Assembly (NCBI GenBank): GCA_913775725.1
Contig: CAJYNG010000020.1
Coordinates: 124,001 to 188,000, forward strand
DNA length: 64,000 bases
Source of the DNA: an uncultured Stenotrophomonas sp.
GTDB lineage: Bacteria; Pseudomonadota; Gammaproteobacteria; Xanthomonadales; Xanthomonadaceae
Reading direction: 5' to 3'
Shown: in pieces, positions 34,362 to 64,000 of the stretch
Numbering within the stretch: the stretch's first letter is position 1
Layout of the letters: each line of letters starts with the position of its first letter
Notes under the pieces: generated by a model
Seen by the model: only the letters and a program-made list of their open reading frames with translations
What the model was told of the DNA's origin: nothing
Database searches by the model: none
Made by a program: the position numbers and the translations under genes

Positions 34362-34450
34362 GTAGAGCCGAGCCCATGCTCGGCTTGCGCGCAAAGCGCG
34401 GTCCATACCGCATCGGCCCAGAGTTCAGCCGAGCATGGGCTCGGCTCTAC
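34362..34450. repeat. SMAG (GTAG) repeat, inverted pair
   Basis: GTAGAGCCGAGCCCATGCTC opens a hairpin at 34362-34385, and its inverse lies at 34427-34450 ending GGCTCGGCTCTAC. This is the dimeric arrangement of Stenotrophomonas GTAG-headed palindromes. It lies just behind the SDR stop and may stabilise or terminate the transcript. Confidence 0.9.
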
Positions 34451-51837: not shown

Positions 51838-51901
51838 GTAGAGCCGAGCCATGCTCGGCTGCGGCTACCCGAACGGCAGCCGAGCGTAGGCTCGGCTCTA
51901 C
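51838..51901. repeat. SMAG (GTAG) repeat, inverted pair
   Basis: Hairpin GTAGAGCCGAGCCATGCTCG... starts at 51838, and its inverse at 51878-51901 ends GGCTCGGCTCTAC. It follows the metallo-hydrolase gene, where it could act as a transcript end or mRNA stabiliser. Confidence 0.9.
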
Positions 51902-52000: not shown

Positions 52001-55000
52001 ATGACGTTGCGCGCCGAACGCTCCAAGGTCTCCACACCGCTTTTCCCGTTGCGCCCTGCCACTGCCCTGCTGTTGGCCGCCCTGGCCTCCAGCGCACAGG
52101 CACAGACCCTCCCCCCGCGCAGCCAATGGCAGGCCAGCAGTTCCTCGCAGCAGGTACCGGCGATGGCGATCAGCCACCTCATCGACGGCGACCCGAAGAC
52201 CGTGACCGGCGGCGCCTTCAGCCCCGGCCACTGGTTCCAGATCGACTTGGGCGCGCCCACCCTGCTGGCCGGCGCGCGCCTCACCTGGGATGTATCGAAC
52301 CCGGAAGGCTATTCACTGCAGACCTCACTGGATGGCACGCAGTGGCAGACCGCGTACACGATGGCCGATTCACTGGGCGATGTGGAAACGCTGTACTTCG
52401 CACCGCGGCAGGCGCGCTACCTGCGGCTGGCCAGCCCGCAGCGCACCTCCGATTGGGGCGTTTCGATCTTCGAGATGGAACCGCTGGACAGCACGCTCAG
52501 TGCACGCATTGGCGGTGTGGATGCAGCGCAGGCAGCAGCGCTCTGGCAAGGCGGCAGTCCGGTCGCCCTGCCGGCCGGGCGAGGCGGCAGCCACACGCTT
52601 GAAGTCACCCTGCCTCGTGCACAGTCCACGGCCGGCCTGGTCGTGGAATGGGCCGCTGGCGCACGCGGTGCGGCCCGCCTGCAGGCACAGGACGCCCAAG
52701 GCCGCTGGCAGGAACTGGCCCACGATGCGCAGGCAGCAGATCACGAGCAGAGCTGGCTCGCGGCCGATACCGCGCAATCCGTGCGCGCATTCCGCCTGAG
52801 CGTGGATGGTTCTGCACCAAAGGTGGCACGACTGCGCCTGCTGGGCCCGAAAGCCGTGATGACACCGATGAAGCAGTATCAGATCGTCGCCAGCGGCGCG
52901 CAGCGCGCGTTGTTCCCGGCGTCGCTGCAGATGCAGCAGACCTATTGGACAGCCGTCGGTGTGCACGCAGGACGACAGAAATCGATCTTTGACGAGTACG
53001 GCAATCTGGAAGCCTTCAAGGGCGCGCCACTGGTGCAGCCAATCTGGCGAAGTGCTGACGGGCGCGTCGCTGGCGCGGCAGAACAGCCGATACAGCACGC
53101 GTTGCAGGATGGCTGGAAGCCGATGCCCTCCGCCACGTGGTCACCGCAACCCGGCCTGGAGTTGCGCAGTGAAGTGTTCGCCATCGAGCGCAATGGCCAG
53201 CCGGTGACCTTCCTCCGCCATCGCCTGCACAACACCGGAAAGACCCGCATCGACGGCACGCTCAGCCTGGTCGTGCGCCCGATGCAGATGAATCCACCGT
53301 GGCAGAACGGCGGGCTGTCACCCATCCGCGATGTGGCGATCGATGGACAGGCCGTGCGCATCAACGGGCGCACGCTGCTGCAGTCGCTCACGCCGGTGGT
53401 AGCGTCCGGCGCGGCGGCCTTCGGCAAGGATGGTGCAGCGGAAATCACCGCGACCCTCGCTGCCGGCCAACTGCCCTCCACACAACAGGCACGTGATGAC
53501 CAGGGTCTTGCCTCGGCTGCGTTGAACTACCGCGTGTCACTGGCACCGGGAACCAGCGATGCCGTGGTGGTCGCGTTCCCGTTGGGCACCGCCGCCACCG
53601 ACGCCAATGGCGTTCTGCCCGAAGCGCCTGCGCTGGATCTGGCCAGACTGCCCCGCGATGCCAATACGGCATTCGATTCCCTGGCCACGCAGGCCTCCGC
53701 GGACTGGCAGGCGCGCCTGGGCCAGGTCGGCCTGCGCCTGCCCGATCCCTCGCTGGTCGACATGCTGCGCGCGCAGGCCGCCTACATGCTGATCAACCAG
53801 ACCGGCCCGGCGATGCAGCCCGGCCCGCGCAACTACAACCGCTCCTTCATCCGCGACGGCATGGCCACCTCGGCGGTGCTGCTGCGCATGGGCGAAGCCC
53901 GCGTCGCGCGCGACTACCTGGCCTGGTACAGCGAACACGGCGTGCATGCCAACGGTCTGGTCTCGCCCATCCTCAACGACGATGGCAGCGTCAACACCGG
54001 CTTTGGTTCGGACATCGAGTACGACAGCCAAGGACAGTACGTGGCGCTGGTGGCCGACGTTGCACGCCTTGATGGTGGACCGGAATCGGTGCGTGACTAC
54101 CTGCCGAAAGTGAAAGCCGCGCTGCACTTCCTGCAGGAGCTGCGCGAACGCACGCTGGTGCCCGGCTACAAGGCCGACCAGCCATCGCCGGAGCGCTTCG
54201 CCGGCATCCTTGCACCGTCGATCAGCCATGAGGGCTATCCGTCGCCTACCCACAGCTACTGGGATGACTACTGGGGCCTGAAGGGGTGGCGCGACGGCGC
54301 ATGGTTGGCCGACGCACTGGGTGACCACGAGACTGCTGCCTGGGCGCGTGAGCAATACAAGCTGCTCTACGACGCGCTGCACGCCTCGATCCGGGCGACG
54401 ATGGCGTGGAAGGGCATCGACTTCATTCCCTCCTCAGCTGATCTGGGCGATGGCGACCCGACCGGTGTATCGATCGCGCTGGACCCCACCGGTGCGCAGA
54501 GCGTGCTGCCCGCCGAGGCACTGCGGACCACCTTCGCGCGTTATCTGGACGATGTACGCAAGCGCAGCCAGCCAGGCGCACTGTACGCCTACACGCCGTA
54601 TGAGATCCGCAACGTGCTCAGCTATGTGCACCTGGGCCAACCACAGGCAGCCGATGAGCTGCTGCAGGGGCTGCTGCATGACCGGCGCCCGCTCGAGTGG
54701 CAGGTGCTGGCCGAGGTCGTGCACTCGCGCCTGCGTTTCCCACGCTACCTCGGTGACATGCCGCACACCTGGATCGGCGCCGAGTACGGTCGCACGCTGT
54801 TCGGCATGCTGATGCGTGAAGACGATGATGCCCTCTCACTGCTGCCGGGCACGCCGCCCTCGTGGGTGGCAGGCGATGGATTGGCGGTGGAGCGGTTGCC
54901 GACAGCGTATGGCACGTTGCAGATGCAGGCGCGGCAACGCGACGGCGTGCTGACGGTGGCGCTTGGTGAGGGGCTGCGCGGCGGGACGGTGGTGAAGGTC

Positions 55001-55120
55001 TGGTGGCCGGCACGGACGATGCCGAAGACGGTGCGTGTGGATGGACGCAGCGTTTCCGACTTCGATGCCGAGGGTGTGCGGCTGGTGAAACCGTTCCGGA
55101 CACTGGAGGCGCGTTGGTAG
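52001..55120 (+). CDS. Secreted discoidin-domain glycosidase-like protein
   Basis: 1039 residues. A signal peptide (ATALLLAALASSAQAQT) is followed by an F5/8 type C (discoidin/CBM32-like) domain around residues 40-165, containing AISHLIDGDPKTVTGG, GHWFQIDLG and QARYLRLASPQ. The C-terminal half (about 590-960) looks like an (alpha/alpha)6 barrel: RNYNRSFIRDGMATSAVLLRMGEARVARDYLAWY, DDGSVNTGFGSDIEYDSQGQY and SYWDDYWGLKGWRDGAWLA, with acidic residues in usual catalytic positions. I cannot assign a GH family. A LacI-type operator suggests carbohydrate induction. GAGG precedes ATG 52001, and the TAG stop lies in a GTAG repeat. Confidence 0.85.
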   Translation: MTLRAERSKVSTPLFPLRPATALLLAALASSAQAQTLPPRSQWQASSSSQQVPAMAISHLIDGDPKTVTGGAFSPGHWFQIDLGAPTLLAGARLTWDVSNPEGYSLQTSLDGTQWQTAYTMADSLGDVETLYFAPRQARYLRLASPQRTSDWGVSIFEMEPLDSTLSARIGGVDAAQAAALWQGGSPVALPAGRGGSHTLEVTLPRAQSTAGLVVEWAAGARGAARLQAQDAQGRWQELAHDAQAADHEQSWLAADTAQSVRAFRLSVDGSAPKVARLRLLGPKAVMTPMKQYQIVASGAQRALFPASLQMQQTYWTAVGVHAGRQKSIFDEYGNLEAFKGAPLVQPIWRSADGRVAGAAEQPIQHALQDGWKPMPSATWSPQPGLELRSEVFAIERNGQPVTFLRHRLHNTGKTRIDGTLSLVVRPMQMNPPWQNGGLSPIRDVAIDGQAVRINGRTLLQSLTPVVASGAAAFGKDGAAEITATLAAGQLPSTQQARDDQGLASAALNYRVSLAPGTSDAVVVAFPLGTAATDANGVLPEAPALDLARLPRDANTAFDSLATQASADWQARLGQVGLRLPDPSLVDMLRAQAAYMLINQTGPAMQPGPRNYNRSFIRDGMATSAVLLRMGEARVARDYLAWYSEHGVHANGLVSPILNDDGSVNTGFGSDIEYDSQGQYVALVADVARLDGGPESVRDYLPKVKAALHFLQELRERTLVPGYKADQPSPERFAGILAPSISHEGYPSPTHSYWDDYWGLKGWRDGAWLADALGDHETAAWAREQYKLLYDALHASIRATMAWKGIDFIPSSADLGDGDPTGVSIALDPTGAQSVLPAEALRTTFARYLDDVRKRSQPGALYAYTPYEIRNVLSYVHLGQPQAADELLQGLLHDRRPLEWQVLAEVVHSRLRFPRYLGDMPHTWIGAEYGRTLFGMLMREDDDALSLLPGTPPSWVAGDGLAVERLPTAYGTLQMQARQRDGVLTVALGEGLRGGTVVKVWWPARTMPKTVRVDGRSVSDFDAEGVRLVKPFRTLEARW

Positions 55121-55261
55121 AGCAGCCGAGCATGGCTCGGCTCTACAAAAGGCAGACGCCACGCGTAGATCCACGCCATGCCTGGATGCTCCTGTAGAGT
55201 CGAGCCATGCTCGACTCATCGCGCATCGCGCGAACTGCAGCCGAGCATGGCTCGGCTCTAC
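55117..55261. repeat. Cluster of SMAG (GTAG) repeats
   Basis: Three elements: a hairpin at 55117-55146 (GTAG then AGCCGAGCATGGCTCGGCTCTAC-type stem); a degenerate GTAGATCCACGCC...GGAT element at 55165-55190; and an inverted pair at 55194-55261. The first supplies the TAG stop of the glycosidase-like gene. No gene lies in 55121-55294. Confidence 0.88.
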
Positions 55262-55294
55262 AATGACGGCGGTGGCGCCGGGCCACGCCCGGTG

Positions 55295-56272
55295 TCATTG
55301 CAGCGTCGGCAACCCCGGCGGATTGGTCTGCGACTGCGGCACCGCTTCCTCGGCCACGTTCCATCGTTTCAGCGCCTGCGCATAGGTGCCGCTGCCAATC
55401 TGGGTGTTCAATGCCTGGGTCACCGCATCGGCCAGGCCGCTGCCCTTGCGCGTGGTCACCGAAATCGCCGCCGCATTCGGCCAGCCACCAGGGAACAAGC
55501 CCACACGCCGCACCTTGCCGTCGCGTGCCGAGTACGCGCCGGTGGCATTGGGCTCGAACGAGACATCGGCACGGCCGGTGATCACCGCCAACCGGCCGAC
55601 CACGGCATCATCGAAGTACTGATACTCGACTGGCTTCAAGCCAGCAGCAATGTTCTGCTGGTCCCACTGCCGCAGGATCTGGTCCTGGTTGGTGCTGGCA
55701 CCCACCACCACCTTCAGCCCGGCGACATCGGCCGGCTTCTCGATCTTCTGGATCGGCCCATCTGTACGCGTGTAGATGCCCAGCAGGTCGTAACGGTAGC
55801 TGGAGAAATCGAATTTCTTCTTGCGCTCCTCGGTGACCGTCACATTGGACAGCACCGCATCGTACTTGCCCGATTCCAGCCCCAGCGGCCAGTCCGGCCA
55901 AGCCACCGGTACGATCACCAGCCTCAGGCCCAACCCATCGGCGATCAGCCGCGCGATGTCCGGCTCGATGCCGACCACGTCCTTGCTGTCGGCACCATAG
56001 TCGGCCAGCGGCAGCTGCCCCGGATGTGTAGCCACGGTGAACGCCCCGGGCGTGACGAAGCGGTAGCCGGTCGGAATCAATGCCTGCGCCTTCGGGTCGA
56101 ACGTGCCCTTCAGCACGGCCGTGTTCGCACCGGCCAGGCTGGTCGCGGCCACGGCGCCGGCATCCGGTGCCTGGCGTACGCGCGAATAGACGATGCCGGC
56201 GATGCCGATGACCAGCACGCCCACGATCAACAGGGTGCTGCGCGAGGGGCGACGCGGTGCTGCAGGGCTCAT
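55295..56272 (-). CDS. Amino-acid ABC transporter substrate-binding protein
   Basis: 325 residues. An uncleaved-looking N-terminal helix (STLLIVGVLVIGIAGIVYS) anchors or exports it. The SBP_bac_3 fold is clear: GYRFVTPGAFTVATHP, VVGIEPDIARLIADGLGLRLVIVPVAWPDWPLGLESGKYDAVLSNVTVTEERKKKFDFSSYRYDLLGIY, then VVVGASTNQDQIL. The glutamine/cystine-type family binds amino acids in the periplasm. As the last gene of the sulfur-compound operon, it likely captures an S-substituted cysteine for the transporter at 56290. GAAGGA precedes the ATG. Confidence 0.92.
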   Translation of the reverse strand: MSPAAPRRPSRSTLLIVGVLVIGIAGIVYSRVRQAPDAGAVAATSLAGANTAVLKGTFDPKAQALIPTGYRFVTPGAFTVATHPGQLPLADYGADSKDVVGIEPDIARLIADGLGLRLVIVPVAWPDWPLGLESGKYDAVLSNVTVTEERKKKFDFSSYRYDLLGIYTRTDGPIQKIEKPADVAGLKVVVGASTNQDQILRQWDQQNIAAGLKPVEYQYFDDAVVGRLAVITGRADVSFEPNATGAYSARDGKVRRVGLFPGGWPNAAAISVTTRKGSGLADAVTQALNTQIGSGTYAQALKRWNVAEEAVPQSQTNPPGLPTLQ

Positions 56273-56289
56273 GGTGTTCCTTCGGGGGT

Positions 56290-58035
56290 TTACAGGGTCT
56301 TGGCCAGGAAATCGGCGGTGCGTTGCTGGCGCGGGCGCTCGAACAGGGCCTCGGGCGTGCCCTGCTCGATCACCCGGCCCTGGTCCATCATCACCACGTG
56401 GTCGGCCACGCGGCGCGCGAAGCTCAGTTCATGGGTGACGATCACCAGCGTGGTGCCGGAGCGGGCCAGTTCTTCGATCACGCTCAGCACCTCGGCCACC
56501 AGTTCCGGGTCCAACGCCGACGTGGGTTCGTCGAACAGCAGCACCTTCGGCTGCAGCGCCAGTGCCCGCGCAATCGCGATGCGCTGCTGCTGGCCACCGG
56601 ACAGCTGGCGCGGGAACGCATCAGCCTTGTCGGCCAGGCCGACCCGCTCCAGCAGCGTCCGCGCCTGCTGCTCGGCCTGCGCGCGCGGCACGCCACGCAC
56701 CGCGATCGGTGCCTCGATGATGTTCTCCAACGCGGTCAGGTGCGGGAACAGGTTGAAGCCCTGGAACACCATGCCCACTTCCGCACGACGGCGGCGGATC
56801 TCGCGCTCGGGCAGTTCGTACAAAGTGTCACCCTCGCGGCGGTAGCCGATCAGCTGGCCGCCGACGGTCACGTAACCGCCGTCGGCGCGTTCCAGGTGGT
56901 TGATCAGCCGCAGCAGCGTGGACTTGCCGGCGCCCGAAGGGCCGATCAGCACGGTCACGCTGCCTGCGCGCAACTCCAGGTTCACGTCTTCCAGCACCGC
57001 CTGATCGCCGAACGTCTTGCCTACGCCGTGCAGCGACACCGCAGCGCCCTCGCCCGCTTCAACCTGAGTAGCGATGCGCGGGCGGCTGGTCACGCGCGGT
57101 GCTGTGTCACCGGGTATGCGCGGCGCCGACGATACCCGCGACACCGAGCGCTCGCGCTGCAGCTGGCCGCGCGCGAAGCGCTGTTCCACGCGCCGCTGCA
57201 GCAGCGACAACACGGTCAGGATCACCAGGTACCAGACCGTGGCCACCATCAGCAGCGGCACCACTTCCAGATTGCGGCGATAGATCACCTGCACGGTGTA
57301 GAACAGCTCCGGCAGCGCCAGCACGTAGACCACCGAGGTGCTCTTGGCCAGGCCGATCACATCGTTGAACGCGGCCGGCAGGATCGAACGCATCGCCTGC
57401 GGCAGGATGATGCGGCGCACCTGGCGGCCACGCGGCAGGCCAAGCGCGGCCGCGGCCTCGTACTGGCCGTGGTCGACCGACAGGATACCGCCGCGGATCA
57501 CCTCGGCCGAGAACGCCGCCTGATTCAAGGTAAGACCCAGCACCGCAGCGGTGAACACACCGATCAGCTGCGTGGTCGGGTACGAGAACAGGCTGATGCC
57601 GGTGAACGGCACGCCCAGCTCGATGGTGCTGTACAGGTAGCCCAGGTTGTTCAGCAGCAGCAACAGCACCAGCAGCGGGATCGAACGGAACAACCACACG
57701 TAGCCCCACGACACCGCCGACAGCAGTGGCGAACCGGAGACGCGGGCCAGGGCCAGCAAGGTGCCCAGTGCGAAACCGAGTCCGGTACCGAGTGCGGTCA
57801 GCAGCAACGTGCGCCCCAGGCCTTCCAGCACCGGACGTGCGAAGAACCACTCGGCGAACGTGCCCCAGCCCCAGCGCGGATTGCCCAGCACAGACTGCAG
57901 CCCGATCAGGATCAGCGCCAGTGCCAATACCGTGCCGAACACTTGCAGCGGATGCCGGGCCGGCACGATTTTCAGCGCCGGTGCTGGCGCCGGACGAGCG
58001 GCGATGCCCTCCAGCGCGGTCGAGGGCGTGCTCAT
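56290..58035 (-). CDS. Fused amino-acid ABC permease and ATPase
   Basis: 581 residues joining two normally separate subunits. The permease (about 10-300) has the HisM-type EAA loop QYEAAAALGLPRGRQVRRIILPQAMRSILPAAFN. After a linker, the ATPase (about 335-580) has Walker A (LIGPSGAGKSTLLRLI), Q-loop (GMVFQGFNLFPHLTALEN), signature (LSGGQQQRIAIARAL), Walker B (VLLFDEPTSALDPE) and the switch His in IVTHELSF. It matches the yxeN-yxeO and ytmL/M-ytmN pairs of B. subtilis fused into one chain. It overlaps the GNAT stop by four bases. Confidence 0.95.
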   Translation of the reverse strand: MSTPSTALEGIAARPAPAPALKIVPARHPLQVFGTVLALALILIGLQSVLGNPRWGWGTFAEWFFARPVLEGLGRTLLLTALGTGLGFALGTLLALARVSGSPLLSAVSWGYVWLFRSIPLLVLLLLLNNLGYLYSTIELGVPFTGISLFSYPTTQLIGVFTAAVLGLTLNQAAFSAEVIRGGILSVDHGQYEAAAALGLPRGRQVRRIILPQAMRSILPAAFNDVIGLAKSTSVVYVLALPELFYTVQVIYRRNLEVVPLLMVATVWYLVILTVLSLLQRRVEQRFARGQLQRERSVSRVSSAPRIPGDTAPRVTSRPRIATQVEAGEGAAVSLHGVGKTFGDQAVLEDVNLELRAGSVTVLIGPSGAGKSTLLRLINHLERADGGYVTVGGQLIGYRREGDTLYELPEREIRRRRAEVGMVFQGFNLFPHLTALENIIEAPIAVRGVPRAQAEQQARTLLERVGLADKADAFPRQLSGGQQQRIAIARALALQPKVLLFDEPTSALDPELVAEVLSVIEELARSGTTLVIVTHELSFARRVADHVVMMDQGRVIEQGTPEALFERPRQQRTADFLAKTL

Positions 58036-58583
58036 GCGTGGGCCCCTTGCAGCTGGGTCTGCGCAGGCACGATGACGGGCGCCGGTGCCCGCAGGTGCTT
58101 TTCGAACGGCAGATGCGCAACCGTTTCCGGGTCGGCATCCAGATCGAACAGCGCGGTGTAGCCATGGCTGAGGTACAGGCCAACAGCTTCAGGCTGGCGG
58201 AAGCCCGTCGTCAGGAACACCCGCCGGTACCCCTGCCGCGCCGCCTGGTCTTCCAGCTCCTGCAGCACGCGCCGCGCGATGCCCTGCCGGCGCAACCCGG
58301 GCAGCGTCCAGATTCGCTTGAATTCGGCGGTATCCGGGTCTCGGTGCGGCATGAACGCGCCACCGGAGATCGCCACACCGTCACGCAGCAGCAATACAAA
58401 CGCCCCTACCGGCGCAGCAAAGGCCTGCGCCGGATAGCGCTGCAGCTCCTCGCGAGCGCTGCCACCGATGCGTCGACGCACGTCGGCGTAGCGGCTGTCG
58501 TACTCCTGTTCAAGACCGTCGAACAGGGGCCGCGCCAGCGGATCATCCACCGAGGTATAGAGGAAGCGTTCGTCGCTGCTCAT
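58032..58583 (-). CDS. GNAT acetyltransferase, candidate S-substituted cysteine N-acetyltransferase
   Basis: 183 residues from ATG 58583, which overlaps the amidohydrolase stop (ATGA); AAGGA lies six bases upstream. Motif A: FKRIWTLPGLRRQGIARRVLQELEDQAARQGYRRVFLTTGFRQPEAVGLYLSHGYTALF. In the B. subtilis ytm and yxe operons a GNAT protein N-acetylates S-substituted cysteine before oxygenation; the same gene company here supports that role by inference. The longer frame to 58625 lies inside the amidohydrolase gene. Confidence 0.9.
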   Translation of the reverse strand: MSSDERFLYTSVDDPLARPLFDGLEQEYDSRYADVRRRIGGSAREELQRYPAQAFAAPVGAFVLLLRDGVAISGGAFMPHRDPDTAEFKRIWTLPGLRRQGIARRVLQELEDQAARQGYRRVFLTTGFRQPEAVGLYLSHGYTALFDLDADPETVAHLPFEKHLRAPAPVIVPAQTQLQGAHA

Positions 58584-59800
58584 GTCGCATCCTTCACCAG
58601 ATAGTCTTCGGCCAGCCGCGCCCACAGGCTGGCGGCGGGTGCGATGGCCGCATCGTTGAACACGTAGCGCGGGCTGTGCAGCGGCGCGCTGTCGCCGTTG
58701 CCGACGAACACGAAGCTGCCCGGTCGTGCCTGCAGCAGGAACGCAAAGTCCTCGCTGGCAGTGCGCGGTGCGAATTCGGGCACCACCTGCTCGCTGCCGA
58801 ATCCCTGCACGGCAACTTCACGGATGTAGGCAGTCTGCTGCGGATGGTTGATCACGCTGGGGAAGCCGCGCGGGAATTCGATCTCGGCGCGTGCACCGAA
58901 CGCGGCGGCGGTCTGCTCGGCAATCTCGGTGACCCGGCGGCGCAACGTGTCGCGCACTTCCGGCAGGTAGGCGCGCACGGTCAGCTTCAGCTCGACCACG
59001 TCCGGAATCACATTGGCGGCCTGCCCGCCGTGGATCGAGCCAACAGTGACCACGCCCATCTGCCGTGGATCGACATTGCGTGACACCACGCTCTGCAGCG
59101 CGGTGATGATGTGCGCCGCCACCAGGATCGGATCCACGCTGCCCTGTGGTTCAGCGCCATGGCCCCCCTTGCCGATCACCTTCAGCCGTGCCCAGTCCAC
59201 CGACGCCATCGCCGGGCCATCGACGAAACCGAAGTGGCCCACCGGCACGCCCGGCCAATTGTGCAGCCCATAGATCGCATCCACCGGGAAGCGCTCGAAC
59301 AGGCCGTCGGCAATCATCTTCGAAGCACCCGAACCGGTTTCCTCGGCCGGCTGGAACACCAGCTGCAGGGTGCCGTCGATATCACCGTGATGGGCCAGAT
59401 AGTGCGCAGCGGACAGCAGGATGGCGGTATGCCCATCGTGGCCGCAGGCATGCATCAGGCCCTCAGTCTGGCTGGCGTAGGCCAGGCCGGAGTCCTCGTG
59501 AATCGGCAGTGCATCGATGTCGGCGCGCAGACCGAGACGACGGCTGCCCTGCCCGCGCTGCAGCGTACCGACCACGCCGGTGCCACCGAGGCCGGTGGTC
59601 ACCTCGTAGCCCCATTGCTGCAGCAGCTCGGCCACACGGGCGCTGGTGCGATGCTCCTCGAAGGCCAGCTCCGGGTGCCGGTGCAGGTCATGACGGATCG
59701 CAATGGCGGCCTCGGCCCGTGCCGCGATCTCGGGCAATATGCCCGTCGTTTGGGAATTCCGCCGGGCATGGCCTGGCACTACTGCGGATTCTCCGCTCAT
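58580..59800 (-). CDS. M20-family amidohydrolase, candidate N-acetylcysteine-type deacetylase
   Basis: 406 residues from ATG 59800, preceded by GGTGGGG. Metal and catalytic motifs: RHDLHRHPELAFEEHRTS, the bridging LMHACGHDGHTAILL, the general base pair in FQPAEETGSGA, a dimerisation domain with GKGGHGAEPQGSVDPI, and the final His near APLHSPRYVFND. This matches the hippurate hydrolase/YxeP/YtnL branch, which removes an N-acyl group. In this cluster it would release cysteine from N-acetylcysteine at the end of the pathway. It starts five bases from the stop of the monooxygenase. Confidence 0.93.
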   Translation of the reverse strand: MSGESAVVPGHARRNSQTTGILPEIAARAEAAIAIRHDLHRHPELAFEEHRTSARVAELLQQWGYEVTTGLGGTGVVGTLQRGQGSRRLGLRADIDALPIHEDSGLAYASQTEGLMHACGHDGHTAILLSAAHYLAHHGDIDGTLQLVFQPAEETGSGASKMIADGLFERFPVDAIYGLHNWPGVPVGHFGFVDGPAMASVDWARLKVIGKGGHGAEPQGSVDPILVAAHIITALQSVVSRNVDPRQMGVVTVGSIHGGQAANVIPDVVELKLTVRAYLPEVRDTLRRRVTEIAEQTAAAFGARAEIEFPRGFPSVINHPQQTAYIREVAVQGFGSEQVVPEFAPRTASEDFAFLLQARPGSFVFVGNGDSAPLHSPRYVFNDAAIAPAASLWARLAEDYLVKDAT

Positions 59801-59804
59801 CGTC

Positions 59805-61148
59805 TTACCCCACCTTCCGCGCCGGCTCGGCATCGGTCGAATGACGGCTGGCTTTGTACGGCAGGCCCAGATGTTCGCGCAGGGTCTGCCCTTCCAGCTC
59901 GCGCTGGTGGTAGCCGCGCACCTGCAGGATCGGCAGCACCTGGGTCACGAAATCGTCCAGGCCTTCGCGCTGTGCGGCGAATCCAAGAATGAAACCGTCG
60001 CTGGCACCGGCATCGAACCAGCGGATCAGCTCATCGGCCACGTGCTCCGGCGTACCGATGAAGTTCGGTCGCGGGCTCACTGCTTCCAGTGCCACCTGGC
60101 GCAGGCTCAGGCCTTTCTCACGCGCATCCTGCTTGATGCGGTCGGTGGTGGAACGGAACGAGTTGCTGCCGATCTCACCCAGCTCTGGGAAGGGAGCATC
60201 CGGATCGTACTGGCTGAAATCATGGTGATCGAAGAAGCGGCCAAGATAGGCCAGCGCATCCTCAAGCGTGGCCAGTGCGGCGATTGCCTGGTACTTGGCT
60301 TCGGCCTCCTCGGCAGTACGGCCGACAATGGGGCCGATACCCGGGAAGATCTTCACGTCATTGCCGCTGCGGCCGTGCGCGATCGCCGAGTTCTTCACCT
60401 TCTGTGTGAACGAGCGCGTTTCTTCCAGCGACGGCGAATGGGTGAACACCGCGTCGGCGTACTTGCCGGCCAGTGCGATGCCATCGTCGGACGAACCCGC
60501 CTGGAAGATCACCGGCTGGCCCTGCGGCGAGCGCTGGATGTTGAGCGGCCCTTCCACCTGGAAGAAGCGACCCTTGTGGTCGAGGCGGCGGAATTTCTCC
60601 GGCGCGAAGAACGTGCCGCTGTCGCGCTCACGCACGAAAGCGTCGTCGTCCCAGGAATCCCACAGCCCTTGCACCACGTCCAGATACTCGTCGGCGATCT
60701 GGTAGCGCAGCGCGTGCTCCGGGTGTGGCCGGCCGTAGTTACGGCCAGAACCTTCCAACGGCGAGGTCACCACGTTCCAGCCGGCGCGGCCGCCGCTGAG
60801 CAGATCCAGCGAGGCGAACTGGCGGGCCACGGTGAACGGGTCGCTGTAGGACGTCGACAAAGTACCCGCCAATCCGATCTTCCTGGTTGCCGTGGCCAGC
60901 GCCGACAGCAACGAGATCGGCTCGAAGCGGTTGAGGAAGTGCGGGATCGACTTCTCGTTGATGTACAGGCCGTCGGCCACGAAGCCGAAGGCGATGCCGT
61001 TATCCTCGGCCGTGCGCGCGATGTCGATGTAGAACTGCAGGTTGACGCTGGCATCGGCAGGATTGGAGGGATGCTTCCAGGCATGCATGTGGCTGCCGGG
61101 GCCCTGCAGCATGATGCCGAACGGAATGTGGCGCGGGGTGGTGCTCAT
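59805..61148 (-). CDS. FMN-dependent monooxygenase, NtaA/SnaA/DszA/SoxA family (CmoJ/YxeK-like)
   Basis: 447 residues, the length of B. subtilis CmoJ and YxeK. Luciferase-like barrel: IPFGIMLQGPGSHMHAWKHP, FGFVADGLYIN, LAGTLSTSYSDPFTVARQFASLDLLSGGRAGWNVVTSPLEGSGRNYG, and GQPVIFQAGSSDDGIALAGKYADAVFT. These are hallmarks of reduced-FMN monooxygenases that cleave C-S or C-N bonds. Its expected substrate is an N-acetyl-S-substituted cysteine, inferred from the neighbours. An AGGAG site precedes ATG 61148. It needs reduced FMN, for which the reductase at 62678 is the obvious source. Confidence 0.93.
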   Translation of the reverse strand: MSTTPRHIPFGIMLQGPGSHMHAWKHPSNPADASVNLQFYIDIARTAEDNGIAFGFVADGLYINEKSIPHFLNRFEPISLLSALATATRKIGLAGTLSTSYSDPFTVARQFASLDLLSGGRAGWNVVTSPLEGSGRNYGRPHPEHALRYQIADEYLDVVQGLWDSWDDDAFVRERDSGTFFAPEKFRRLDHKGRFFQVEGPLNIQRSPQGQPVIFQAGSSDDGIALAGKYADAVFTHSPSLEETRSFTQKVKNSAIAHGRSGNDVKIFPGIGPIVGRTAEEAEAKYQAIAALATLEDALAYLGRFFDHHDFSQYDPDAPFPELGEIGSNSFRSTTDRIKQDAREKGLSLRQVALEAVSPRPNFIGTPEHVADELIRWFDAGASDGFILGFAAQREGLDDFVTQVLPILQVRGYHQRELEGQTLREHLGLPYKASRHSTDAEPARKVG

Positions 61149-61166
61149 GGGAATCGCTCCTGCAGG

Positions 61167-62144
61167 TCAGGCCACCGCCGCGCGTGGCGCGGGCGACAGC
61201 AGCTCAAGGGAAGTCAGGCGTGCGTCGAGGTCAGCCACTGGCGCGTCGAGGACGAATTCGCCCACGCCGAAGCGCCGATGCAGCGCATCCAGTTCGTCAC
61301 GCACGTGCTGCGCATCACCGGACAACACGCTCGGGCGCGTTTCCTCGATGCGGAAGTCGGCCACACCCACCTGCCGCGCGTACTCGGCAGCCGCCTCGGG
61401 GCTGGGCAGGTTCACCGTCTGCCCGGGACCGAGGTGCAGCTTGTAGACGCGCAGCGCACCGATGTGACGCGCAGCGGCTTCCGCAGTCGGTGCAGCAAAG
61501 GCCACCGTAGCCAGCAGCGGGGGCTGCGAGGAGATGCTGCGATAGGCGTCGAACGCCGCCTCGATGTGCTTTGGATCACCATCGAAGTGCGCGGCGTAGA
61601 CGAAGCGCCAGCCGAGCTCGGCGGCCTGCTGCGCGCTCTGCGGGCTTGCGCCGAGCAGGAAGCGCTCCGGCGCCTGCTGCGGGATCGGGCGTGCCAACGC
61701 GTCGGTTCCGGCGCCGGACAGATAGCCCTCCAGATCGCGTAGTTGCTGGTCGAAGTCGGCGAACGCTGGGCGTCCGGCCGCCAACGCAGCGGTCGAGGCC
61801 GGCAGGCCGCCCGGCGCCTTGCCCACGCCCAGATCCACGCGCCCTGGCGCCAACGCTGCCAGCAGGTTGAAGTTCTCCGCCACCTTGTACGGCGCGTAGT
61901 GGCGCAACATCACCCCGCCGCTGCCGATGCGGATGCGCCGGGTCTGCGCCAGCACCCAGGCCGCCAGCACTTCCGGTGCAGGGCTGGCCAACGTCGGTGC
62001 GGCATGGTGTTCGGCAAACCAGTACCGGTGATAGCCCAGCTGTTCGGCGCGCTGCGCCAGCTGCAGGCTGTTGCGCAGCGCCTGCTCCGGTGAAGCGCCT
62101 TCGGCCACCGGGCTCTTGTCCAGCACGCTGATCAGGTAGCTCAT
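61167..62144 (-). CDS. Luciferase-like flavin monooxygenase (YtmO-like)
   Basis: 325 residues. LLM-class features: ISVLDKSPVAEGASPEQALRNSLQLAQRAEQLGYHRYWFAEHHAAPTLASPAPEVLAAWVLAQTRRIRIGSGGVMLRHYAPYKVAENFNLLAALAPGRVDLGVGKAPGG. This belongs to the MsnO8/YtmO group, which differs from the NtaA-type enzyme next door. B. subtilis carries the same pair of unlike monooxygenases (ytmO, ytnJ) in one operon. The second oxygenase may process a related S-substrate or an intermediate. GAGGA precedes ATG 62144. Confidence 0.92.
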   Translation of the reverse strand: MSYLISVLDKSPVAEGASPEQALRNSLQLAQRAEQLGYHRYWFAEHHAAPTLASPAPEVLAAWVLAQTRRIRIGSGGVMLRHYAPYKVAENFNLLAALAPGRVDLGVGKAPGGLPASTAALAAGRPAFADFDQQLRDLEGYLSGAGTDALARPIPQQAPERFLLGASPQSAQQAAELGWRFVYAAHFDGDPKHIEAAFDAYRSISSQPPLLATVAFAAPTAEAAARHIGALRVYKLHLGPGQTVNLPSPEAAAEYARQVGVADFRIEETRPSVLSGDAQHVRDELDALHRRFGVGEFVLDAPVADLDARLTSLELLSPAPRAAVA

Positions 62145-62158
62145 GGTCGTGTCCTCGC

Positions 62159-62521
62159 TCAGGGGTGGGCCACGGGAATGCCGAGCAATCCGTTCAGCGC
62201 GGCCAGGATCGGTTCGGCACCGGAGATGTACTGGCGGTCCTGGTGCGCGCCACTGGCAAGTTCGCTGCGCACGCCCTGCGGCAGCACCAGCTTGGGCAGC
62301 GACTGGTCCTGCTCGCCGATCTCGGCGATCACCTCGCGGCGCGGCCGCGCGAAGCCGATGCGGCGCACGTCCAGCTGCGCGCCCAGGCCGTCGATGCTCG
62401 ACAGGGCACCTTCCAGCAACAGGCTGTGCCGGCAGAAGAAGCGCTGGCCGGGAATCTGGCCGTCCTCGAACTCGCGGTCGAGCAGGAACAGGATGGGTTT
62501 GCTTGCTGCGTCGAGCGTCAC
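62159..62521 (-). CDS. DUF3088 protein with a thioredoxin-like CxxS motif
   Basis: 120 residues from GTG 62521, with GAGGA eight bases upstream. The opening PILFLLDREFED, the segment RFFCRHSLLLEGALSS and LDVRRIGFARPRREVIAEIGEQDQSLPKLVLPQG resemble a compact thioredoxin or glutaredoxin fold, with CRHS at the redox-motif position and a plausible cis-Pro in SLPKLVL. DUF3088 itself has no assigned function. In B. subtilis the corresponding operon encodes the redoxin-like YtnI (CmoI), so this may be its counterpart. It ends 14 bases before the monooxygenase gene. Confidence 0.8.
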   Translation of the reverse strand: MTLDAASKPILFLLDREFEDGQIPGQRFFCRHSLLLEGALSSIDGLGAQLDVRRIGFARPRREVIAEIGEQDQSLPKLVLPQGVRSELASGAHQDRQYISGAEPILAALNGLLGIPVAHP

Positions 62522-62677
62522 TGGGTGGTCCTCATCTGTGCCGGCAATGCGATGCCGCTTCGATATCGATGCTAGAGATGCCAGCGGCTGCCACAGCGAT
62601 GCCAGGCGACAATCGGCGGTCAGATCCGGCCATGCAGATGCGCCTTGGCCATATGCAAAACGCCGCCGGTTATGGCA

Positions 62678-63259
62678 TCAGGCGATGCGTCGCAGCGGCG
62701 CCGCTACCGCCAGCCCCTGCGTCGCCAGATGCCCGGCCGCGCGCTCGGTCGCCAGCGCGATGCGCGCCTGCAAGGCTGCACTGTTGATGTGCTCACCATC
62801 GAAGTCGGCAGGCGTGGCATACACGCCAACCGGCAACGTGTGCGCCTGCAGGAAACTGAACAACGGCCGCAGCTGGTGGTCGATGACCAACGCATGGCGC
62901 TCACTACCCCCGGTCGCCGCCAGCAGCACCGGCGTATCCACCAGCGCTTCCAGCTCGATGAAATCGACCAGGTGCTTGAAGAGCCCCGGGTACGATCCAC
63001 GGTGAACTGGCGCCGCCACCACCAGCAGCTCCGCCGCCTCGATGGTCTGCAATGCCTGCTCCACTGCCGGCTCCACTTCACCCCGCGCCAGTGACTGGCC
63101 CAACGAGCGTGCAATCGGCGCCAGCTCCACCAGCTCCACGCTGGCATGCACCCGCTGCTGCAGCGACGCCAGCAGATGCCGCACCAGCAGCAATGTGCGC
63201 GACGTCGCCGAACTGGCCGGCGACCCCACCAATGCAACCACCTTCAATGCAGAAGACAT
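62678..63259 (-). CDS. NAD(P)H-dependent FMN reductase (SsuE/MsuE-type)
   Basis: 193 residues. Flavodoxin-like fold: KVVALVGSPASSATSRTLLLVRHLL (FMN phosphate loop), LVVAAPVHRGSYPGLFKHLVDFI and PVLLAATGGSERHALVIDHQLRPLFSFLQAHTLP. These are diagnostic of the SsuE/MsuE family that supplies reduced FMN to two-component monooxygenases. The two LLM enzymes downstream need exactly that. GAGGAG precedes ATG 63259. A 156-base gap to the DUF3088 gene holds no feature I can name and may contain a promoter. Confidence 0.93.
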   Translation of the reverse strand: MSSALKVVALVGSPASSATSRTLLLVRHLLASLQQRVHASVELVELAPIARSLGQSLARGEVEPAVEQALQTIEAAELLVVAAPVHRGSYPGLFKHLVDFIELEALVDTPVLLAATGGSERHALVIDHQLRPLFSFLQAHTLPVGVYATPADFDGEHINSAALQARIALATERAAGHLATQGLAVAAPLRRIA

Positions 63260-63309
63260 GAACTGCTCCTCGATGATGCCGGACTACGTCCGGCCGCCGT
63301 TGGCCTTTT

Positions 63310-63332
63310 GTAGAGCCGAGCCATGCTCGGCT
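63310..63332. repeat. Single SMAG (GTAG) palindrome
   Basis: A GTAGAGCCGAGCC / ATGCTCGGCT hairpin lies in the gap between the TonB-dependent receptor and FMN reductase genes. Its position suggests a partial transcript break between them. Confidence 0.85.
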
Positions 63333-63348
63333 GCCTTTGACCTGAACC

Positions 63349-64000
63349 TCAAAACCGGTAACTGACCCGCCCATACCAGTACGCCCCGACGTTGCCCAGC
63401 ACATCGCCGCTATCCCACGTCGTCTCGATGCTGGCCACATCGGTGGCACTGCGCGCGTACTCGGGCACCTTGCGGGTGCGCTTGTCGAACACGTTGTTGA
63501 TGCCCAGCGCCGCGCTCCAGCCCGCACCCAGTTCCACGCCACCGGACAGGTTGGTCACCAGTACCGGCGGCTGCTTGTATTCCACACCGTTGTTCAGGCG
63601 CTTGATCGGGCCGTAGTAGGTGAAGTCCAGGTTCGAGCGCCAGCGTCCGTTCTGCCAGCCCAGCCCCGCGACCTGTGTGTAGCTGGGCGTGCGGAAGCGC
63701 AGCGCGTACTCGCTGGACTTGGTCAGCAGGTTGATGTTCGGCAGCCCCTGCAGCGCCGCCGGAATGTCGCTGACCTTTTGGATGGTGGTGCGGCCGACGT
63801 TGGCCGCGTAGCTCCAGCGCAGCTTGCCCCACGCAGTCTCCTGGTTCGCTTCCAAGGTCAGCTCAATACCGCGCGTGCGGGTGTTGCCCACGTTGGTGAA
63901 GTAGCTGGCATAGAACGCATCCCCCGGCAGGATGTTGATGCCGGCAGAACCCAGCAGCGCATCGATGGTGGTCTTCTGCGCCGCACTCAGCACCGTGCCG
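63349..64000 (-). CDS. TonB-dependent receptor, C-terminal part (5' end off window)
   Basis: About 217 residues, open to the right edge; the real start is outside. The sequence is a run of outer-membrane barrel strands: ASYFTNVGNTRTRGIELTLEANQ, KLRWSYAANVGRTTIQ, YALRFRTPSYTQVAGLGWQNGRWRSNLDFTYYG and AALGINNVFDKRTRKVPEYARSATD, ending with the barrel signal GRVSYRF. The NNVFD motif is typical of TonB-dependent receptors. It lies upstream of, and in the same direction as, the sulfur-compound operon, so it may import its substrate across the outer membrane. Confidence 0.92.
   Translation of the reverse strand, partial: GTVLSAAQKTTIDALLGSAGINILPGDAFYASYFTNVGNTRTRGIELTLEANQETAWGKLRWSYAANVGRTTIQKVSDIPAALQGLPNINLLTKSSEYALRFRTPSYTQVAGLGWQNGRWRSNLDFTYYGPIKRLNNGVEYKQPPVLVTNLSGGVELGAGWSAALGINNVFDKRTRKVPEYARSATDVASIETTWDSGDVLGNVGAYWYGRVSYRF

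Follow-up and report, generated by a model that had tools for sequence, protein, structure and literature searches.

What is the function of the gene cluster that occupies the minus strand from position 55295 to the end of a 64,000-nucleotide stretch of DNA from an uncultured Stenotrophomonas sp. (contig CAJYNG010000020.1; the whole stretch is referred to here as the window)? A preliminary description proposed that its nine genes take up S-substituted cysteines and recover cysteine from them by acetylation, oxygenation and deacetylation, and the gene families support this well. The proposed pathway was right in kind, but it treated the Bacillus subtilis monooxygenases CmoJ and YxeK as one and put S-(2-succino)cysteine first among the substrates, against which stand a CmoO gene and the clade to which the CmoJ protein belongs. 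By predicted gene content the cluster matches a cmo operon and not one for S-(2-succino)cysteine, and very probably it is a Gram-negative cmo operon that would salvage S-alkylcysteines for their sulfur. We favour the S-alkylcysteine (cmo) route because of the CmoO gene, the placement of CmoJ in its clade and the presence of a single CmoJ-family match in the genome. Open reading frames (ORFs) and matches to domain and family profiles confirmed the content, order and strand of the nine genes as first described:

63349..64000, running beyond the window end, minus strand: TonB-dependent receptor, C-terminal part (PF00593, 46.7 bits)
62678..63259, minus strand: MsuE-type flavin mononucleotide (FMN) reductase (TIGR03566, 218.9 bits, cut-off 212.5)
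62159..62521, minus strand: DUF3088 protein of 120 amino acids (PF11287, 101.9 bits)
61167..62144, minus strand: CmoO-type (YtmO/MsnO8) luciferase-like monooxygenase (LLM), a flavin monooxygenase (TIGR03558, 330.9 bits, cut-off 166.95)
59805..61148, minus strand: CmoJ-type (YtnJ) flavin monooxygenase, an LLM of the NtaA/DmoA family (TIGR03860, 517.4 bits, cut-off 279.7)
58580..59833, minus strand: M20 deacetylase (TIGR01891, 365.3 bits, cut-off 153.75)
58032..58625, minus strand: GNAT N-acetyltransferase (PF00583, 52.5 bits)
56290..58035, minus strand: fused permease-ATPase of an ABC importer (PF00528 at 87-288 and PF00005 at 348-506)
55295..56272, minus strand: family 3 substrate-binding protein (PF00497, 82 bits)

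Which kind of enzyme is the larger of the two monooxygenases? When solved structures were searched with the protein encoded at 59805-61148, YtnJ (CmoJ, 1tvl) scored 526.8 bits, followed by chain B of 7e36 (282 bits), a dibenzothiophene enzyme (267.8), dimethyl-sulfide monooxygenase (DmoA, 228.1) and EDTA monooxygenase (208.5); the dibenzothiophene and EDTA enzymes were compared by score only and are absent from the tree described below. The protein reached only 50.6 bits with the alkanesulfonate model (cut-off 518.2) and 97.7 bits with the SfnG model (cut-off 382.95). It is 57% identical over 423 amino acids to CmoJ of Bacillus inaquosorum and 46% identical to the YxeK-type paralogue, and in three genomes of Bacillus species near B. 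subtilis the CmoJ proteins are 55-56% and a second paralogue 46-47% identical to it. We take this second paralogue to be YxeK, since M20 and ABC genes are likewise present at its B. inaquosorum locus. In a maximum-likelihood tree of 58 rows (71 were gathered and 13 dropped, from four loci of the genus and from Brachybacterium-type loci), the window CmoJ and YtnJ lie in a 34-row clade with support 97/91, and YxeK, DmoA, riboflavin lyase and 7e36 lie outside it; long branches in the outer rows triggered a program warning. The label for a neighbouring CmoO gene falls on 32 of the 34 rows of this clade, with the YtnJ row labelled by hand, and as many rows were picked for a nearby CmoO homologue this clustering is partly built in. 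One further row with the label, the distant paralogue L148_5966, falls outside the clade. The genome of the window gave a single CmoJ-family match (after scoring of six of ten initial candidates). On these comparisons, the larger monooxygenase is classed as a relative of CmoJ (YtnJ) and not as the YxeK type. Grouping with sulfonate, nitrilotriacetate or dibenzothiophene enzymes, which the preliminary description had named as the outcome that would count against it, did not appear, the dibenzothiophene and EDTA enzymes being judged by score. Membership of the sulfonate, nitrilotriacetate, dibenzothiophene or dimethyl-sulfide enzyme class was rejected on the scores, and for dimethyl sulfide on the tree too.

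The second monooxygenase is 41% identical over 331 amino acids to CmoO of the B. inaquosorum cmo operon. In a CmoJ search of 247 genomes of the family, 27 of which had a match, CmoO adjoins CmoJ in all 11 genomes where CmoJ is 81-100% identical (the window's own genome included) and in none of the four fetched loci at 41-49% identity; other family loci at 42-43% were left out of this check. Searching in the opposite direction, we found CmoO matches at E 1e-50 in 32 of 398 genomes of the phylum. Outside the genus there were 19 places with CmoO of at least 44% identity, all of them fetched, and every one had CmoJ (58-75%) within 5 kb; an ABC gene was also present at 19 of them, GNAT at 18, a binding protein at 18 and M20 at 16. 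Among ten weaker CmoO places, the eight that were fetched all lacked CmoJ. These reciprocal neighbourhood checks lead us to conclude that CmoO and CmoJ travel as a pair, as they do in B. subtilis. Predicted CmoO-CmoJ cassettes recur in other Pseudomonadota, and the cluster is more than a chance assembly since its gene set recurs in other genomes. Named rhizobial plasmids keep the same gene order from CmoO onward.

The M20 protein gave 260.6 bits with YxeP (1ysj), is 42% identical to the M20 protein of the B. inaquosorum cmo operon (locus L046) and 40% identical to that of the YxeK-type locus, and its motifs HACGHD and EE and its His residues are invariant in all five aligned sequences; it is presumed to be an N-acetylcysteine deacetylase. 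The fused permease-ATPase and the binding protein are assigned by sequence to an amino-acid/cystine-type ABC importer. Their best NCBIfam models are L-cystine TcyN for the ATPase part (311.5 bits, below the cut-off of 406) and a cystine-binding protein for the other (64 bits, below the cut-off of 312). One cassette without M20, at L136, has an AstE/AspA-type (aspartoacylase family) hydrolase at L136:3781-4773, 0.6 kb upstream of GNAT, which is perhaps a substitute deacetylase; M20 was also not seen in L138 or in the Paraburkholderia cassette L184.

How might these proteins act together? An S-alkylcysteine with a small alkyl or aryl group, or a conjugate yielding one, would cross the outer membrane aided by the TonB receptor and pass the inner membrane through the cystine-type ABC importer, and GNAT is presumed to N-acetylate the imported compound. 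CmoO would then oxidise the N-acetyl-S-alkylcysteine from thioether to sulfoxide, and the MsuE-type reductase is presumed to supply FMNH2 to both monooxygenases. CmoJ presumably cleaves the C-S bond of the N-acetylcysteine sulfoxide, to yield N-acetylcysteine sulfenic acid together with an aldehyde. Reduction of this acid (or of its mixed disulfide) would follow, probably by the thioredoxin-like DUF3088 protein, the M20 enzyme would free cysteine, and a divergent AraC-type protein would control the operon. The gene families, the clade placement, the conservation of the cassette and the co-occurrence of its genes were observed directly; each reaction step would be carried over by analogy from work on B. 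subtilis. There, CmoO oxidises the N-acetylated thioether to the sulfoxide and CmoJ splits the sulfoxide into sulfenic acid and aldehyde, according to an extract of PMC10863075, and YtnL deacetylates N-acetylcysteine, according to an extract of PMC12757645. If the scheme is true, a Bacillus salvage pathway extends to Gram-negative bacteria, including rhizobia, Pantoea and Paraburkholderia, and a function falls to proteins whose sole annotation is LLM oxidoreductase, 'nitrilotriacetate monooxygenase' or DUF3088. DUF3088 in particular becomes a testable candidate for reduction of the sulfenic acid, a step for which the available portions of the B. subtilis papers name no enzyme. A search of the open-access literature found no published Gram-negative cmo operon.

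For a closer comparison the B. inaquosorum locus L046 stands in for the cmo operon of B. subtilis. It consists of a divergent LysR-type gene, followed by GNAT, two binding proteins, two permeases, an ATPase, CmoO, a glutaredoxin of 93 amino acids (CSYC), CmoJ, a RibR-type protein, M20 and a TSUP-type transporter; the names LysR, RibR and TSUP were given by position and by eye, and the glutaredoxin was identified by a profile scan. The window shares with the B. subtilis cmo (ytm/ytn) operon the clustering of CmoO, CmoJ, M20, a GNAT-family protein, a thioredoxin-fold protein and an ABC importer of the cystine type. However, it has DUF3088 where Bacillus has the glutaredoxin CmoI, and an MsuE-type FMN reductase where Bacillus has the flavokinase RibR. 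Its permease is fused to the ATPase, it has one binding protein instead of two, it adds a TonB receptor, its regulator is of the AraC type whereas that of Bacillus is a divergent LysR-type protein, and its operon is without the TSUP-type transporter.

Could the same chemistry draw chiefly on S-alk(en)ylcysteines from plants or on the corresponding sulfoxides, of the bean, onion or brassica type, and not on alkylation damage? CmoO would be dispensable for sulfoxides. This explanation overlaps with the S-alkylcysteine reading and differs in the source of the substrate only. We consider it possible, if rather unlikely: plasmids of nodule rhizobia (from bean, clover and pea) and of a Pantoea isolated from an onion bulb carry cassettes, but a bias of those collections towards plant isolates may be all that lies behind this. 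A breakdown of S-(2-succino)cysteine of the kind encoded by the Bacillus yxe (scm) operon is very improbable; in that case the NtaA-family enzyme would take the part of YxeK and the MsnO8 protein would be an accessory. The two systems share the logic of acetyltransferase, NtaA-family monooxygenase, M20 deacetylase and ABC importer, and the window CmoJ and M20 are 46% and 40% identical to the YxeK-type protein and to the M20 protein of its locus. However, the window monooxygenase falls in the CmoJ clade and YxeK outside it, and the window has CmoO, which found no match in 20 kb around the B. inaquosorum YxeK-type gene (locus L166) and which adjoins the close CmoJ relatives in all 11 family genomes. 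No S-(2-succino) lyase is found among the operon's genes, the rest of the genome not having been searched for it. On the clade and the gene content, S-(2-succino)cysteine was rejected as the primary explanation. An operon for scavenging sulfonates, dimethylsulfide or aromatic sulfur is hinted at by the FMN reductase, which exceeds the MsuE cut-off and stands beside LLM monooxygenases as in MsuE/SsuE systems, and by the msuE annotation at the end of rhizobial cassettes, but this is hardly credible, given a monooxygenase far under the alkanesulfonate and SfnG cut-offs, DmoA outside its clade, an importer of the amino-acid type, no SsuD/MsuD-type enzyme, and the presence of GNAT and M20, which have no known role in sulfonate use.

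More questions are raised by DUF3088, to which the preliminary description gave no role. It had called the locus complete; the nine genes stand, and completeness requires that the reduction step be carried out by DUF3088 or by a housekeeping thiol system. A 2010 study, of which an extract (PMC3091736) was available, used HHpred to place DUF3088 in the thioredoxin clan with glutaredoxin 2 as the best structural match. In our alignment Cys30 and Pro76 are invariant in 28 of 28 rows, which include near-copies from the genus and exclude the split L045 copy. A single-sequence search of solved structures gave no match of weight. With a profile, 16 matches were obtained at E 0.12 to 1.3, none significant, and all of these were named thioredoxin, DsbA, thiol:disulfide interchange or disulfide oxidoreductase. 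DUF3088 is uncommon, occurring in 17 of 299 genomes of the phylum. In four of the 17 it is inside a cmo cassette (the window's own genome, one congener and two of family f44), and in two (L033, L036) it is directly beside another CmoJ-family monooxygenase. It is present in all 11 cassettes of the family, and a Mesorhizobium plasmid has the order DUF3088-CmoO-CmoJ-M20-GNAT-permease/ATPase-binding proteins. A rough Fisher comparison of the occurrence of DUF3088 with that of the cassette (4/12 versus 13/287, p 0.003) is not used as an argument; it counts the window's own genome and assumes that the two genome samples coincide as far as G298. CmoI-like proteins were found at all seven further Bacillota CmoJ loci and at no other locus of the same search, and none was found at ten named plasmid loci. 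We consider it plausible, and hold it only tentatively, that DUF3088 is the reductase of the CmoJ product. At L033:7056-13381 it lies among CmoJ-family monooxygenases, a nitroreductase and two acyl-CoA-dehydrogenase-like genes, which we take to be of the SfnB type; this is probably another sulfur-scavenging cluster with DUF3088.

Another candidate for the reduction was a 'DsbA family' protein that ends the cassettes in L137, Rhizobium and Ensifer and that one record names 2-hydroxychromene-2-carboxylate isomerase (HCCA isomerase). It was rejected, as all four sequences read have zero Cys and it is not a usual thiol reductase. The cassettes with this Cys-less DsbA/HCCA-isomerase-type protein at the end (L176, L177 and L185 on Rhizobium and Ensifer plasmids, and L137) are without DUF3088, and there the protein is followed by msuE or cystathionine beta-lyase. 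In the Pantoea, Methylobacterium and Paraburkholderia cassettes (L178-L180, L184), DUF3088, the 'DsbA family' protein and CmoI are all absent from the fetched stretch, so a thioredoxin-fold partner is not universal.

Several points weigh against the cluster being a cmo operon that works as outlined above. The substrate is one that we infer, as neither the alkyl group nor the receptor's cargo is fixed by any evidence here. The top solved-structure match of CmoJ is 3sdo (633.1 bits), for which nitrilotriacetate monooxygenase is the depositors' name only. GNAT found no match at E 0.01 among the ORFs of the B. inaquosorum cmo or yxe loci, and with B. velezensis it gave only a weak, short alignment (28.9% over 97 amino acids). 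Both CmoI and RibR are absent among the operon's genes, the rest of the genome not having been searched for either. DUF3088 has no directly adjoining CmoO or CmoJ-family gene in 11 of its 17 genomes (in one of these, L035, two CmoJ-family genes are 4-8 kb away), it is lacking in 15 of the 19 CmoO-CmoJ cassettes outside the family (four have it), and at two of three named plasmid loci (L181, L182) it is outside any cassette. The profiles of DUF3088 and CmoI did not match in hhalign (probability 0.3%), after which homology of the two was dropped and DUF3088 was retained only as a functional analogue. Finally, TonB receptors usually carry larger or metal-bound cargo than S-methylcysteine.

The receptor gene is complete in the assembly, as an ORF of 870 amino acids (L009:11350-13962, minus strand). 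It is adjoined, outside the window, by a divergent gene for an FtrA-like AraC-type regulator of 333 amino acids (L009:14242-15243, plus strand; 424.9 bits with PRK09393, just below the cut-off of 425), which the preliminary description had missed. Of 31 sampled genomes of the genus, one and the same set of 14 carries the AraC gene (81-100% identity), the ortholog of the receptor (85-100%), CmoO and DUF3088, a count uncorrected for kinship, as are those of the flanking genes below. From this shared distribution, the four behave as one unit, and the linkage of regulator, receptor, CmoO and DUF3088 is new here. Receptor relatives of any kind were found at E 1e-60 in 30 of the 31 genomes, the non-orthologs being 33-41% identical. 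An ortholog of the downstream neighbour (at least 79%) is present in 13 of the 14 carriers and 6 of the 17 non-carriers, and one of a gene further upstream (at least 81%) in four carriers and one non-carrier. We sought the AraC gene at ten fetched receptor loci and found it in eight, each time divergent from the receptor; the other two are L043, which is cut by the contig end, and L136, from another family, whose cassette holds a receptor related at 33%. In one congener with a draft genome of 83% completeness, the receptor ortholog has a single in-frame TAA (G652:C171:45329-47878), and the CmoO and AraC matches are free of stops. For the cargo of the receptor, the role of the regulator and that of DUF3088, we can only infer. 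That the receptor carries a bulky S-conjugate is doubtful. It is also possible, if rather unlikely, that both proposals hold together: in some cmo operons of proteobacteria DUF3088 would have replaced CmoI as a reductase dedicated to N-acetylcysteine sulfenic acid (or its mixed disulfide), and the receptor would import a bulky cysteine S-conjugate or metal complex, which would amount to conjugate scavenging coupled to the outer membrane.

Is the whole cluster transcribed as one unit? The short gaps and overlaps first described between 62521 and 55295 were borne out by measurement, with gaps of at most 18 bases and overlaps of 4-46: from DUF3088 to the binding protein the junctions are a 14-base gap, an 18-base gap, overlaps of 29, 46 and 4 bases and a 17-base gap. 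The two long overlaps may reflect the choice of start. An internal ATG at 59800 would leave M20 a 4-base gap, one at 58583 would give GNAT an ATGA overlap, and these may be the starts used. Wider gaps separate the receptor from the FMN reductase (89 bases) and the FMN reductase from DUF3088 (156 bases). Given these gaps and the GTAG-ended palindrome in the first of them, co-transcription across the palindrome is not certain. This palindrome (63303-63338) is one of several GTAG-ended elements resembling repetitive extragenic palindromes (GTAGAGCCGAGC...GCTCGGCTC); another lies downstream of the operon (55122-55263), further ones are at 34362-34450 and 51838-51901, and similar copies occur throughout the genome. 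They have the GTAG end in common with the SMAG consensus and otherwise differ from it; the GTAG-ended kind has been reported for Stenotrophomonas, according to an extract of PMC2613905. Downstream of the operon, on the opposite strand, a protein of 1039 amino acids is encoded at 52001-55120 and matches zero NCBIfam models.

Less than 5 kb separates the cassette from the start of the plasmid record in R. leguminosarum 248, where repABC precedes it, and in R. etli IE4803. In R. leguminosarum 248, the alignments of GNAT and of the permease-ATPase are each split in two (L176:8148-10508) and neither gene is in the gene table, so both may be interrupted or mis-sequenced.

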